Notes under the pieces: generated by a model | Told to the model about the DNA's origin: nothing | The model's input: only the letters and a program-made list of their open reading frames with translations | Databases searched by the model: none | Position numbers and translations under genes: made by a program | Assembly: GCA_009782955.1 (NCBI GenBank) | Contig: WRIB01000001.1 | Coordinates: 1 to 64,000 of the forward strand | DNA: 64,000 nt | DNA from: Treponema sp. | Lineage (GTDB): Bacteria > Spirochaetota > Spirochaetia > Treponematales > Breznakiellaceae | Direction: 5' to 3' | In this document: in pieces, positions 19,344-64,000 of the stretch | Numbering within the stretch: position 1 is the first letter of the stretch | Layout of the letters: each line of letters starts with the position of its first letter

Positions 19344-19369
19344 CTCGTGGAGGCGCGGAGAGCGCAAAG
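19344..19369 (+). repeat. Left copy of a 26-bp inverted repeat bounding an AT-rich islet
   Basis: ctcgtggaggcgcggagagcgcaaag; 22/26 match to the reverse complement of 21353-21378. Confidence 0.85.
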
Positions 19370-19547
19370 TTTTCAGTCTTTGCGCAAAAATGACTGTTGT
19401 AAAATGACATTATTTTTGAATATTTGTGAGTATTTTTATAAAAAAGTGAATAAAAAAAGTATTGACATTATTGATTTTCGTGGTAATGTATTTATGTGGT
19501 GCAAGACTTTATATTATTTCAGTTTGGAAAGATCGTAGGGGTATAAA

Positions 19548-20090
19548 TTGTCTAAGCCTAAAATTCAAAAAGAAGCCATATTTACGATTCTTGAAAATAT
19601 ATTTGGAACAGGAAGTGTGCAAAAAGAGGTTTCATACAACTGGATGGCCTCTCCAGGTAAAATGGATGACGCAGGGGAATATACAAATATCATTCAATCC
19701 CTTGTAAATTATAGAAATAAAATAGAATTTGTTAAAACACATAAACCAAATTGTGATTTTGTAATAGAAAGCAAAAAAATTATTGTTGAATATGATGAAC
19801 GTCAACATTTTTCCGAAGCAAGAAAAATTGCATTAGAAGCATATCCTTCTAATGTTATGCTATTTTTTGATAAAGAAAAATGGATTGAATATTGTGAGAA
19901 AATTAATGCAAAAGACAACGATCCGCATTTTAGGGATGAACAGAGAGCATTTTATGATTCCGTCAGAGATATAGCAAGCGATAAAAACGGCTATAATCTT
20001 TACAGAATAAAAGATAATGAATTTGATTGGACATCTAAAGATGCAGAATCAAAGATGAGATATTTATTAAGTATTAGAGAAGAAAAATAA
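19548..20090 (+). CDS. Hypothetical protein, possible PD-(D/E)XK / Vsr-like nuclease fold
   Basis: NCDFVIESKKIIVEYDERQHFSEARK (Asp ... E-x-D-E-R-x-H). Annotated start is TTG at 19548 as in the ORF track; exact start uncertain. Confidence 0.5.
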   Translation: MSKPKIQKEAIFTILENIFGTGSVQKEVSYNWMASPGKMDDAGEYTNIIQSLVNYRNKIEFVKTHKPNCDFVIESKKIIVEYDERQHFSEARKIALEAYPSNVMLFFDKEKWIEYCEKINAKDNDPHFRDEQRAFYDSVRDIASDKNGYNLYRIKDNEFDWTSKDAESKMRYLLSIREEK

Positions 20091-20917
20091 TGTCAATGTC
20101 AATAAATAACCCAACTAATATTTCCATTTCAAATGAAATTAAAATGAAAAGCCCTTGCTTAAACATTTCAAAAATTGGTATCGTTTCGAGAAATTATAAT
20201 GATAAAGAAGATTTTTCCGAAAGTTTTTATGATATTCTGCAATATTTAGACAGTCAAGGCTGTGATTGTGCTTTATTTTCTCTGTTTACGTTGCTTGCAA
20301 AAAACAGTTTGAACTTAGATATTTTAAGGTTTAAATATTTAAGGAGTATCTTTATAGAAGAATTCGAGAAAAAAGATAACAAAAGGCAAGCAACCTGTTA
20401 TATTGTTTATTATTCGGAAAATGGAAACAGCTGGAAATCGCATCCATTTACTCAAATGTTTGGGTCTATAAGCAACAAAAAACCAGAATACCTTAAAGAA
20501 TTTATTGATGAAGAAGTTCCAAATAAAAGAATCATGGGAAATGCTCTTGTTTTACTTTGCGGTGAAAGTAATATTGTAAAATATAATAAGAAACAAATAA
20601 GAGTTGAAGATATATATGGAATTCTCAAAAAGATACCAAACAATACAAATATTATATTAAACCCAATACATGATAGAATGACACGATTTGAGATGAAAAA
20701 GAAAAGGGAGTTTTTATCAGAAAATAATAGAATTGTTATTTCCGTATGGAATAAAGGAAAAACTTTTAAAAATGATCGAATAGACAATAAAAGTCCTGCA
20801 TATACTGTTTTTTATAATGGCAAAGAAAAACTAATAAAAAAGGAACATTATATATCAAAAAACGATCCTTCAATTGAAGTAGCAATTATTGAAACTGAAT
20901 TAATAATTTTGAAATAA
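20090..20917 (+). CDS. Hypothetical protein, possible nitrilase/C-N hydrolase-like fold
   Basis: NALVLLCGESNIV, NNTNIILNPIHDRMTRFEMKKKREFLSENNRIVISVWNKGK; overlaps the end of the preceding gene. Confidence 0.45.
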   Translation: MSMSINNPTNISISNEIKMKSPCLNISKIGIVSRNYNDKEDFSESFYDILQYLDSQGCDCALFSLFTLLAKNSLNLDILRFKYLRSIFIEEFEKKDNKRQATCYIVYYSENGNSWKSHPFTQMFGSISNKKPEYLKEFIDEEVPNKRIMGNALVLLCGESNIVKYNKKQIRVEDIYGILKKIPNNTNIILNPIHDRMTRFEMKKKREFLSENNRIVISVWNKGKTFKNDRIDNKSPAYTVFYNGKEKLIKKEHYISKNDPSIEVAIIETELIILK

Positions 20918-20993
20918 TGTTGAGAACGAGAGATAGGGGTGAAAGGCGAATAATGAAGGCAAAATACCGAGCCTATCAGATGCCGTTTGCTTT

Positions 20994-21347
20994 TTATATT
21001 CTTTTCCACCCATTTTTTAATAATTCATCAAGCATATTATTTTCATGAAATTCTTTAACTGATATTTCTTTATAGATTCCTTTTTCCAAAGAACCATTTT
21101 TTGCAAAAACAAATAATTTTGCAAACATATCATTATATATTACATCATTACCATTTTTCATTATAGGAACTACAGATATACAACATCCAATATGACCTTG
21201 ACAAATATACCTTTCATAAGTATTCAATTCTTCAAAAGGTGTATTACTCCATGGCCCTAATTCTGTCATAAAAACATTGGAGGTAAAATGTTTTCGCTTT
21301 CTGTTAATATTCAATTCGTTTAAATTCGTGTAATTCGTTGATCTCAT
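20994..21347 (-). CDS. Small hypothetical protein
   Basis: 117-codon ORF; its first ~25 codons read through repeat-like sequence (aattcgtttaaattcgtgtaattcg), so the true start may be MTELGPW. Confidence 0.4.
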   Translation of the reverse strand: MRSTNYTNLNELNINRKRKHFTSNVFMTELGPWSNTPFEELNTYERYICQGHIGCCISVVPIMKNGNDVIYNDMFAKLFVFAKNGSLEKGIYKEISVKEFHENNMLDELLKNGWKRI

Positions 21348-21352
21348 ATTTC

Positions 21353-21378
21353 CTCTGCGTTCTCCGCGCCTCCGCGTG
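21353..21378 (-). repeat. Right copy of the 26-bp inverted repeat
   Basis: + strand ctctgcgttctccgcgcctccgcgtg; inverted relative to 19344-19369. Confidence 0.85.
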
Positions 21379-59499: not shown

Positions 59500-59561
59500 G
59501 AGGCTCCCCGGCGGATTATGTAACGTTTACAGATACCTCGAGGCTTGCCTCGGGGAGCCTC
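59500..59561. repeat. Nested palindromic element 2
   Basis: gaggctccccg ... cggggagcctc (perfect 11-bp IR) enclosing cgaggc-tt-gcctcg. Confidence 0.85.
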
Positions 59562-59744
59562 ATTGTTTTACGAAGCATTGCTGCGCGGTGGACTTCCAGT
59601 ATGGACTCCATTGATCCGGTAAATTCAGCAAGATGGTCTTTATTATACTATGCGAGTTTTTTAATCAAATAATCGAAAAATGACAAAAAAAAATGGTTGA
59701 CAGATAAGTCTGAATATGGTATCTTATTTGTACTGGAGGATAAA

Positions 59745-60029
59745 ATGGCATTAAATTTAAGGAATAATGTAAAACCAATTTCTTATGTAAAAACCAATGC
59801 AGCCGAAATGATGAATTATGTAAATGAACACAGAAACCCAATAATAATAACACAAAATGGTGAGGCAAGAGCCGTTTTAATGGATATAAATACCTATCAG
59901 GATAATGAAGATGCATTGGCTCTATTGTGTTTGTTAAGAATGGCAGAAAAGGACATTGAAAACGGAGATGTAAAAGATTCCGAAGCAGTATTTAAAGAAT
60001 TAAGGGAAAAGTTCAAAAAAAATGGTTAA
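59745..60029 (+). CDS. Phd/YefM-type antitoxin
   Basis: NVKPISYVKTNAAEMMNYVNEHRNPIIITQNGEARAVLMDINTYQ. Confidence 0.9.
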   Translation: MALNLRNNVKPISYVKTNAAEMMNYVNEHRNPIIITQNGEARAVLMDINTYQDNEDALALLCLLRMAEKDIENGDVKDSEAVFKELREKFKKNG

Positions 60030-60387
60030 AAAAACAACTAAATATAAAAAATATGTTGTTAAAATTACACAAAATGCAGAAAATGATTTAACTGAAATTA
60101 TAAATTACATTTCCCAAAATAATCCACAAACAGCATTGGTAATTATGGAAAAAATAATTTCAAGGATAAAAACATTGGATCGTTTTCCTTATAAGGGAGG
60201 ATATGTTCCTGAATTACTGGTTAGGAATATTAAAGATTTTAGAAAAATAACAGAAACTCCATGGAATATTTATTATAAAATAAATGACAATATTGTAAAT
60301 GTATTGGCTGTAATTGATTCAAGAAGAAATTTAAAAGATATATTAATAAATAAACTATTAGGAGATGAAGCAGCCAACTTCGTTTAA
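60022..60387 (+). CDS. RelE/ParE-type toxin
   Basis: YVVKITQNAENDLTEIINYISQNNPQTALVIMEKIISRIKTLDRFPYKGGYVPE...RKITETPWNIYYKINDNIVNVLAVIDSRRN. Confidence 0.92.
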   Translation: MVKKTTKYKKYVVKITQNAENDLTEIINYISQNNPQTALVIMEKIISRIKTLDRFPYKGGYVPELLVRNIKDFRKITETPWNIYYKINDNIVNVLAVIDSRRNLKDILINKLLGDEAANFV

Positions 60388-60605
60388 CAAACGGGTTAGG
60401 AGGCGGCAGTTTTTGCCATTTCCCGGACAGTTGCTGCCCAGCGTTCTACCAAAGGTTTTGGGGCCAGGGGGTGGGCAAAATGTGGTGGAGTAAAATCCCA
60501 CAAAGGCGCTTGCGCCGACTGGGATTTTACGGAGCCTAGCCGCCGTAAGGCTCTTAAAATTACTGCATTAGCAGTAACCTTGCGCTAACCGTTTGTTAAG
60601 CGAAG
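60380..60605. repeat. attC-like composite element with near-identical 21-bp inverted arms
   Basis: cttcgtttaacaaacgggttag ... ctaaccgtttgttaagcgaag; contains nested palindrome 60490-60530 (gtaaaatccca..ggcgcttgcgcc..tgggattttac). Confidence 0.6.
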
Positions 60606-60618
60606 TAATATTTGTTTT

Positions 60619-61356
60619 TTATACCTTACCCAATTGTAATATAAAGACCCTGATAAGCCCCAATATTATCATATGCGCGGGACAATAAATATAGAAAAAC
60701 CATTTCATCCCTTTCCAGTTTCCCCTTTGTCCATTATATTGATGTAATAAGGGAATAGCCAATACGATTAGCATTTGCAATAAACCGTACACTTTATTTA
60801 AAAAAATAAAATATCCTATCGAATATATTGTTATAAAAAATATTAACCACAGCATTTGCTTTTTGAAATCGCCTCTGTTCCTTCCCATGTGCAATATCGC
60901 AAGAGCCGCAGGAGAACTCCAAGCTGCGGGAAAAGCAGCGCATATAACAGGAATGACTACTATATTTTTTTGCCATGTTATTAATTTGCTTTTTTCCCAT
61001 ATCACCAATGCGATTAACCCCAACATATATGCCCAAATAACGTATGTCTGATCAAACCCGATAGGTATAAAACTTTTATCAAATGCAAAAGCATAGGCAA
61101 AATGCGTTATAACAGCCCAAATGAATAATCTTAAAATGTATTTTTTTATATTTCTTGTATGGTGATAGCCTTCCACAATTAGAAACATCATAATTGGGGC
61201 GGCTAATCTTCCGATTATGTGCATAAACAACACAGGTATATCCAAACTATAACGAGGGAAAAGAATGAGGGCGGTATGATCTATTGTCATCGCAACAATG
61301 GCGATAATTTTTAGAGCATTCGATGTAAGTCCCTTTATAATTCTTTCATTAACCAT
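60619..61356 (-). CDS. TraX-family membrane protein
   Basis: LKIIAIVAMTIDHTALILFP, MHIIGRLAAPIMMFLIVEGYHHTRNIKKYILRLFIWAVITHF. Confidence 0.9.
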   Translation of the reverse strand: MVNERIIKGLTSNALKIIAIVAMTIDHTALILFPRYSLDIPVLFMHIIGRLAAPIMMFLIVEGYHHTRNIKKYILRLFIWAVITHFAYAFAFDKSFIPIGFDQTYVIWAYMLGLIALVIWEKSKLITWQKNIVVIPVICAAFPAAWSSPAALAILHMGRNRGDFKKQMLWLIFFITIYSIGYFIFLNKVYGLLQMLIVLAIPLLHQYNGQRGNWKGMKWFFYIYCPAHMIILGLIRVFILQLGKV

Positions 61357-61543
61357 AATTTAACCTCCGTAATTATTTTATTTCAAATGCCATGTAGCAA
61401 TTAATCTGACACAAGAAAACTTCCATTCCCGATCATAATCGGGAGTTATTGGATTTTTCTATCTACCAGCGTTTTTCATAAGTATTATAAGGATTAGGCA
61501 GCACTTTGAGATTAAAAAATTGACAAGATACAAAAAAATGATA

Positions 61544-61951
61544 CTAAGATGCAGAATCGTCTATTTCTTCATCGCGTTTTCGTAATAATTGGTTTATCAT
61601 TTCTGTTTCTTTCCGAATTTTTAAAATATCGAGTATTACAGCCAATACATAAATTGCAACTGCCATGATAACAAGAACAAACACAGGTATATCATCCCAA
61701 TTAAAAATTTTCCAAAATGCGACAAGAACAATGATAATATAGCAAATATCCAACAGATATTCCATGATAAGATACCGTGTATCAAGTTTATGCAATAGCA
61801 AAATACCAAGATTAATTATAATATTTGCTCCCAATATTTCAAATACAGTATTAACAGTGATGTTTTTTAAATCAAAGAATACATAAAATAAAGCCAAAAT
61901 TGTTAATGTGGCTCCATGTGTAAAAATGACATTTTGAATGTTTTTTTTCAT
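61544..61951 (-). CDS. DUF3021-type membrane protein
   Basis: Four TM segments; adjacent to the LytTR gene. Confidence 0.75.
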   Translation of the reverse strand: MKKNIQNVIFTHGATLTILALFYVFFDLKNITVNTVFEILGANIIINLGILLLHKLDTRYLIMEYLLDICYIIIVLVAFWKIFNWDDIPVFVLVIMAVAIYVLAVILDILKIRKETEMINQLLRKRDEEIDDSAS

Positions 61952-62392
61952 TTATACTCCTTTTTGCAATATTTGCCTTATGTTGGCTAAATATTTCCTT
62001 GTAACATATAAGCACTTTCCGTTTGATAAAATCGCTTCCAGATGGCTATTTACCATAGGTTTGATCATTTTTAATTTATTGACATTCAAAACACAATATT
62101 TGCTGATTTTAATAAATCCTATGCTTTTTAATTTCTCATGCACCTGAATTAGGCTGCTTTTAACAGTAAAATTTCCCTCTTCAGAACATATTATTGTTTT
62201 TTTATCGACACTTTCAATATAATAAATATCGGAAGTATTAACAAATACTATCCCATCATCTGAATAACATTCAATTTGGGTATCAAACGATTTTATTAAT
62301 GCAAGTATACGATCAATGGTTTTATTTTTTACAGGATACGTAATAAATATTTCAATATCCTTTTGTATTTTTCGCTCATGTTTAATAATCAT
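61952..62392 (-). CDS. LytTR-domain DNA-binding regulator
   Basis: DIYYIESVDKKTIICSEEGNFTVKSSLIQVHEKLKSIGFIKISKYCVLNVNKLKMI. Confidence 0.88.
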   Translation of the reverse strand: MIIKHERKIQKDIEIFITYPVKNKTIDRILALIKSFDTQIECYSDDGIVFVNTSDIYYIESVDKKTIICSEEGNFTVKSSLIQVHEKLKSIGFIKISKYCVLNVNKLKMIKPMVNSHLEAILSNGKCLYVTRKYLANIRQILQKGV

Positions 62393-62489
62393 AGTTTATT
62401 CCACTAGCTAAATTCTAATACATTTTAACATTGCTACCATTTTTGTCAAGTATATTTAAGAATAATTTCAAAACATTTTAGGGCGTATA

Positions 62490-62558
62490 GCACATAACGT
62501 TCCGGCTGAGCCCGAGCCGCCAAAAAGGCGGCGCAGCGCTAACAGACCTGTTATGTGC
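62490..62558 (-). repeat. attC-like element
   Basis: gcacataac...gagccgcc-aaaaa-ggcggc...gttatgtgc; follows the stop of ORF 62598-63113. Confidence 0.65.
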
Positions 62559-62597
62559 AGTAACCCCCCTTATTCTTCTATACATTGTAAATGAAAA

Positions 62598-63113
62598 TTA
62601 ATTAAAATCTTTTCTAGAAACTATACATATCTCATCATTACGATCATTATTTAAGAGATACTTTCTAAATATTTTTATTAGTTCTTCACTCTTTTTAACA
62701 GAAATTTCATCAATAATTATTAGGACAGAAACATATGAATAAATTATTTCTGATTTTTTACGAGAATCATAATTTGCTTTTAAAACCCTTTGTTCTACAC
62801 GACCATGCATCGTTGAAATATCATCATATCCAGGCATAACATTAAGTTCGCTACCAACAGGAACTTCTGGATTAAATCCTGTACCTTCATATGTTGTACG
62901 ATATGTTTCTTTTGAAAGAACTGAACCTTCAATATTATAATGAAAATAAACAAATATTATTGGGTTTTCATATCCTAATGACAGAAGAATTTTTTCTGCA
63001 TTTTCATATATATTAAGCCTCTCCCTTTCAATATAATTAAAAGTTTGCGTACTTGTACATCCAAAAAATATTAGCATAATGATTATTATAAAAAAAGATG
63101 AGGCTTTATTCAT
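62598..63113 (-). CDS. Hypothetical lipoprotein (cassette gene)
   Basis: MLIFFGCTSTQTF lipobox; 171 aa. Confidence 0.7.
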   Translation of the reverse strand: MNKASSFFIIIIMLIFFGCTSTQTFNYIERERLNIYENAEKILLSLGYENPIIFVYFHYNIEGSVLSKETYRTTYEGTGFNPEVPVGSELNVMPGYDDISTMHGRVEQRVLKANYDSRKKSEIIYSYVSVLIIIDEISVKKSEELIKIFRKYLLNNDRNDEICIVSRKDFN

Positions 63114-63188
63114 AATAAAATTATAATATATATTTTCTTTTTTTCAATACATCTAATAAAAATAATAATAAATATTTTGTGGTTATTT

Positions 63189-63252
63189 CGCATAACGTTC
63201 AAGGAACCCGAGCCGCCGTAAGGCGGCGAAGCGCTAACCGTTTGTTATACGA
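63189..63252 (-). repeat. attC-like element
   Basis: cgcataac...gagccgcc-gtaa-ggcggc...cgctaaccgtttgttatacg; follows the stop of ORF 63281-63817. Confidence 0.7.
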
Positions 63253-63280
63253 AGTGTACCCGTATTTTTATTACTAATAT

Positions 63281-63817
63281 TTAAGTAATTGTTTTTAATT
63301 TTATATCGCATTCATTATATATTTTCTCAGCTTTTTCTAATGTTTCTCGACCCTTTTCTTTATATTTGCTTTTATTAAGTATATCATCTTCCTCTTTTGT
63401 TATAATTACAAATTCGAGTTCAGATAACGTAGTTTTTATTTCATTAATTGAACCACATTCTTTACATCTTTCAATAATGCTTCCTAATGGTACAATATGT
63501 TCGAAGAATAATGGCTCATATATTGGGTCTTTTCTTTTTTTATACCATTCTTTATACATTTTGCTGTTTAATAAATTTATTTTTATTCCATTTATACACG
63601 ACAAGAATGCTCTTTCAGAGATTCTTGTCGGTTTGAATTTCTGTCCAAAAATATGTAATACTTCTGATATTCCCTTTTTTAATGATGAACGTATATCCTC
63701 ATTATCAAAAGCAGAACAATGAGTTACAATATAAATATATTCACATATATCCTTAAATTCTACTTCCATTGAATTGGATTCTAGTGGAATCATATTCATT
63801 AAAGGGCTGTTTTTCAT
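63281..63817 (-). CDS. Hypothetical protein with EHIVPL motif, possible HNH-like (cassette gene)
   Basis: EPLFFEHIVPLGSIIERCKECGSINEIKTTLSELEFVIITKEEDDIL. Confidence 0.6.
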   Translation of the reverse strand: MKNSPLMNMIPLESNSMEVEFKDICEYIYIVTHCSAFDNEDIRSSLKKGISEVLHIFGQKFKPTRISERAFLSCINGIKINLLNSKMYKEWYKKRKDPIYEPLFFEHIVPLGSIIERCKECGSINEIKTTLSELEFVIITKEEDDILNKSKYKEKGRETLEKAEKIYNECDIKLKTIT

Positions 63818-63980
63818 TTATTCTCCTTTTCTAATTCATTTTATATTTTAATATTCCTTTTGTCAAAATATTTAGGGAGCATTTCGCATAACTCTATATA
63901 TACGCAATTAATGGCGTATAACATCCATAATTGACATTGTATGCGCAACAAAACTGTACGCGCAATACCAATCCTCTCTT

Positions 63981-64000
63981 TTTCCTCTGTGATCTCCGCG
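63981..64000 (-). repeat. Truncated third copy of the 26-bp islet-boundary repeat at the window edge
   Basis: tttcctctgtgatctccgcg, 17/20 identical to tttcctctgcgttctccgcg at 21349-21368. Confidence 0.65.

Follow-up and report, generated by a model that had tools for sequence, protein, structure and literature searches.

What occupies the space between asnA and proS in this Treponema genome, and what could have put it there? The two genes form a convergent pair, and the islet in their spacer is bounded by a left repeat at 19344-19369 (+) and a right repeat at 21353-21378 (-), inverted relative to each other and identical at 22 of 26 positions, as an earlier note on the window (the whole stretch of DNA analysed, 64,000 nucleotides) had described. 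That note read the islet as a non-transposase cassette that a dispersed repeat mobilises or at which it recombines. We examined the islet genes, the repeat and its relatives across bacteria, the same locus in a congener and the nuclease genes found between similar repeats.

The asnA-proS islet and its genes

Between the repeats (19370-21352), GC content is 27.9%, against 42.7% for asnA and 47.7% for proS, in agreement with the AT-richness described from the sequence. The distance from the asnA stop to the left repeat is 22 bp and that from the right repeat to the proS stop 16 bp, so that the convergent spacer is taken up by the element. Three ORFs make up the gene content. Profile searches of the islet genes found no transposase, and the islet likewise holds no integrase.

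Gene 1 (19548-20090, +) encodes a 180-amino-acid PD-(D/E)XK nuclease-like protein matching DUF7255 (E = 4.5e-11) and, weakly, DUF559; its D...VEYD..H motif appears typical of Vsr/DUF559-like PD-(D/E)XK nucleases. Gene 2 (20090-20917, +; 275 amino acids), which overlaps the gene 1 stop, could not be assigned to any family with confidence. Gene 3 (20994-21347, -), a 117-amino-acid orphan, has its first codons within a second, AT-rich tandem repeat of the CACGAATTA type (21313-21342, -), and its true start may lie further in than 21347. Tandem repeats of this type also bracket this genome's GxxExxY gene.

Among 398 class genomes searched, the gene 1 family and gene 2 were absent from the 397 others. 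Neither gene has a second copy in this genome, and no homologues of either were found in plasmids or phages. Genes 1-3 gave no match to PF13366 or TIGR04256, and Padloc placed the islet genes in no confident defence family; genes 1 and 2 may possibly serve in defence. PDB sequence matches to gene 2 were discarded as noise, and single-sequence structure models were also set aside (mean pLDDT 35 for gene 2 and 43 for gene 1).

A dispersed two-arm hairpin element

The GC-rich 13-bp core of the boundary repeat, GGAGGCGCGGAGA, occurs exactly twice in the 64-kb window. Across the whole genome, a 24-bp form of the repeat with up to 3 mismatches has 7 copies (0 for the reversed control) and a looser, degenerate form has 18 matches (1 for the control), bearing out the proposal that the repeat is dispersed. 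The partial third copy that had been noticed where the window ends (63981-64000, -) is complete at contig position 63985-64008 (-), and its inner side faces accessory DNA of 27-28% GC. Accessory DNA that is AT-rich fills 59500-64000 of the window and encodes TraX, a LytTR regulator and a Phd/ParE toxin-antitoxin pair; the third arm forms the right edge of this island, and the left edge has no arm.

A consensus built from 30 aligned arms of this genome and of congener G004 reads tTCACGCGGAGGCGCGGAGAACGCAGAGGAaA, that is, tandem CGCAGAG-type units of 8-9 bp. For many of the arms, an inverted partner lies one short loop away, and the layout of the element is an arm of CGCAGAG/CACAGAG-type tandem units, a short loop and the inverted arm, with loops mostly unrelated from copy to copy. 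Six copies folded as single strands gave long hairpins (z-scores -3.1 to -6.6), and Rfam gave no match. Given this dispersed two-arm anatomy, the boundary repeats of the islet are the two arms of one palindromic element: the 26-mer taken for a boundary is present, but it is really one arm of a hairpin built from 8-9-bp units. The right arm has a position weight matrix score of 51, the top score in the genome sample; the left arm scores 28, and its degeneracy counts against the explanation that we favour below.

In all, G004 carries 26 arms. Three of its draft contigs (C41, C43 and C149) end about 100 bp or less from an arm; the elements therefore probably break assemblies and are under-counted. 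A separate dispersed repeat of the CTAAAGCATTGGAA...CCGCCCTCCATGGCGG type (L065:3358-3450, L068 near 6660, L045:1-270) recurs in congeners and interrupts an arm in L065.

What demonstrably comes and goes between species is the short palindrome to which the arms belong. We searched the flanks of G004 copies in this genome and aligned the orthologous places. In G004, trmD is interrupted in frame by an insertion of exactly 41 residues that is absent from the intact gene of this species; two further sites (L067/L092 and L081/L093) are also empty in this species, and a one-arm insertion of roughly 73 bp occurs in this species only (L060/L083). Within G004, near-identical elements have different flanks (L068 and L075). 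The cysteinyl-tRNA synthetase gene (L083:4710-6251; L060:2047-3576) contains an in-frame element of about 40 residues at the same place in both species, with unrelated loops. No target-site duplication was visible at four filled/empty pairs, and no recombinase was found; both findings count against the explanation favoured below. The filled/empty pairs could be losses rather than gains, although an in-frame insertion in a conserved enzyme such as TrmD argues for gain. Elsewhere, about 3 kb in G004 (L077:482-3475) corresponds to about 60 bp here, and a CACAGAG palindrome lies close to one end of the additional sequence.

Beyond the genus, the exact 24-base arm pattern occurs in at least 120 stretches from many phyla, including Verrucomicrobia, Cyanobacteria, Acidobacteria, Planctomycetes, Chloroflexi, Bacteroidota, Proteobacteria and Bacillota, against a chance expectation of about 0.1 (18 fixed and 6 two-fold positions, 264 billion bases, both strands). 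An inverted arm lay within 376 bp in 34 of 83 arms examined, compared with 6% of random stretches. The 82 ORFs beside arms included the recurrent nuclease families PDDEXK_3 and Uma2, and their 25 most frequent families contained no transposase.

Of the kinds already described, the Rickettsia palindromic element (RPE) comes closest: a dispersed palindrome of about 100-150 bp that is found between genes and in frame in conserved proteins and has no known mobiliser (PMC2229807, PMC10969869). The arm family resembles RPEs in its in-frame copies in TrmD and CysRS; the asnA-proS copy itself is intergenic. It is set apart from them in organism group and, going by their description, in sequence, as well as by its tandem 8-9-bp units, by loops unrelated between copies, by some copies that enclose whole genes and by its presence in many phyla. 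Bacterial MITEs (Correia/NEMIS, RUP, ERIC) similarly have inverted termini and short, non-autonomous dispersed copies, but the arm element shows no visible target-site duplication, no parental transposase that we could find and no conserved interior. A search of the open-access literature returned no publication containing the arm strings.

Constant arms and differing contents in a congener

Congener G004, whose AsnA and ProS are 94% and 91% identical to those of this species, retains asnA, both arms, 31 bp inside the left arm (19370-19400, +), 10 bp inside the right arm (21343-21352, -) and proS; one 9-bp unit is missing from its left arm. Between these shared points the two species are wholly unlike: 1942 bp here (19401-21342), and in G004 about 0.5 kb of 29% GC with a VapB-like ORF and a VapC gene truncated at the junction. 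The islet genes are therefore not conserved at this locus, and the 31 bp inside the left arm are probably a remnant of the original loop. The empty asnA-proS junction that the earlier note suggested looking for in relatives was not found, because G004 is the only relative that keeps synteny; the other AsnA-bearing relatives examined had no adjacent ProS match.

On this comparison, we read the asnA-proS arms as those of one ancestral element whose loop is occupied by genes and whose contents differ between the two species. The locus looks like a gene-exchange site without a recognisable transposase, a reading that rests on the same arms and flanks enclosing different contents here and at a second locus (L065 in this genome, L074 in G004), where the outer flank is common at 93% and the inside differs. 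The converse also occurs: L065 and L084 share an arm and its leader of about 50 bp but are flanked differently on the outside. Among 17 arms without a close partner, the inner 400 bp were more AT-rich than the outer 400 bp in 14, with a median inner-minus-outer difference of -12 GC points.

These observations bear on a passive alternative, in which a palindrome happens to lie in a tolerant spacer that collects unrelated indels in each species, and the arms are irrelevant to gene content. The spacer of convergent genes would be a neutral target, and such a history would suit a differing segment whose ends lie 31 bp and 10 bp inward of the arms, as it would a VapC gene truncated at the junction, which looks more like debris than like a clean cassette. 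What speaks against it is that the pattern recurs at L065/L074, that the arm-plus-leader unit recurs with different flanks and that AT-rich DNA lies specifically on the inner side of long arms. We regard this history as unlikely, while granting it real weight. Of the cassette proposed earlier, the dispersed repeat and the islet free of transposases stand, whereas the 2-kb islet may or may not have moved as one unit.

Integron cassettes (attC) offer another comparison, with palindromic sites, variable centres and a position beside accessory and toxin-antitoxin genes. Here, by contrast, a single pair of inverted arms encloses the genes, where integron cassettes have direct sites; the islet has no integrase, and there is no array. 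Direct repeats of about 100 bp that contain an arm flank a PIN-toxin-like gene and its small partner at L059:6722-7500, an arrangement that a circle or a duplication might leave on integrating at an element.

Nuclease genes between arms as candidate mobilisers

A motif scan of arm-pattern loci uncovered four GxxExxY genes that start 66-77 bp inside a CACAGAG arm. We then gathered GxxExxY (PF13366) genes irrespective of arms. By eye, the eight from genomes of the genus and order sit between inverted arms whose tandem units are of several types; at one of the eight (L236) the upstream arm is further away. For a cross-locus test, the upstream flank of each gene was compared with the reverse complement of its own downstream flank, and the threshold was set at the 95% level of mismatched pairs. 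The threshold was exceeded by 23 of 35 GxxExxY genes, by none of 32 other ORFs and by 1 of 114 arbitrary positions. This genome and G004 have one GxxExxY gene each, and the arms around the one in this genome are of a different unit type (CACGAAT), which weighs against the account that we favour. When the dispersed arms of each genome were compared with its own GxxExxY arms, the copies available were few.

Most of 15 DUF559 loci showed, again by eye, another arm type, CCCCTCCC...GGGAGGGG; only 4 of the 15 beat their own cross-locus threshold, because DUF559 arms are common to several loci. In many genomes of the phylum (L267-L283, for example L267 and L281), DUF559 genes lie between inverted repeats of the CCCCTCCCTTGATGGGAGGGG-TTAGGGGAGGGTGA type, an arm family apart from the CACAGAG one. 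Within the open-access literature, no publication treats DUF559 together with inverted repeats, and GxxExxY appears in only two, one of which brings it up in a different context.

We consider it moderately probable that the asnA-proS islet marks a transposase-free mobile palindrome, shared by the two species at this site, most of whose loop has been replaced in each lineage and whose family is driven in trans by GxxExxY nucleases. A copy of the element, as we infer from other loci, would have inserted between asnA and proS before the two species diverged. Foreign AT-rich DNA would then have replaced most of the loop separately in each lineage, leaving three genes, including the PD-(D/E)XK-like nuclease, here and a VapB/VapC remnant in the congener, with the arms as the constant part of an exchange site. 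Small PD-(D/E)XK nucleases of the GxxExxY type, encoded between such arms, would move the family in trans, and contents would be exchanged when a broken loop is mended from other DNA, anchored by the arms or by sequence near them. We infer this nuclease-driven mobility from the bracketing of GxxExxY genes by inverted arms (23/35, against 0/32 and 1/114 in controls). The surroundings of GxxExxY (TIGR04256/PF13366) genes, with their CACAGAG-type inverted tandem units, belong to the same arm family as the islet; the islet differs in having no GxxExxY gene and a nuclease of DUF7255/DUF559 type, and arm copies without a GxxExxY gene are the majority.

Could the islet instead move itself, with the arms as its ends and the gene 1 nuclease as its mover, a counterpart of a GxxExxY element? 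Gene 1 is PD-(D/E)XK-like, and two other PD-(D/E)XK families, GxxExxY and DUF559, do lie between inverted arms. We nevertheless find self-mobility improbable: genes 1 and 2 lack a second copy both here and in the 397 other genomes, the congener has the same two arms without gene 1, and the arms are of the GxxExxY-associated type rather than a private one. A still weaker case can be made for the arms as REP elements that a RAYT (Y1 HUH) transposase disperses, or as the ends of some undescribed insertion sequence. The dispersed, extragenic palindromes and the one Y1_Tnp gene of this genome might recall such a system, but we judge it very improbable given arms that are not self-complementary on their own, no transposase among the frequent arm-adjacent families and no Rfam match; RAYT was rejected as the main driver since G004, the arm-richest congener (genome about 85% complete), has no Y1_Tnp match.

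The link between such nucleases and arms may extend further. We advance, tentatively and with less confidence than the account of this locus, that small PD-(D/E)XK nucleases (GxxExxY, DUF559 and similar) form a class of transposase-free elements found across phyla, bracketed by arms, spreading empty arm pairs and leaving exchange sites behind. Spreading would turn empty arm pairs into dispersed palindromes, some of them in frame within proteins, and the leftover exchange sites would take up accessory genes such as those of the asnA-proS islet. The tight linkage of GxxExxY and DUF559 genes to inverted tandem-unit arms points to a specific candidate mobiliser of protein-coding palindromes such as RPEs, and suggests what two common but uncharacterised families of nucleases might do. 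If true, this would account for one way in which individual accessory genes are exchanged at set positions on the chromosome, with neither a transposase nor an integrase involved.
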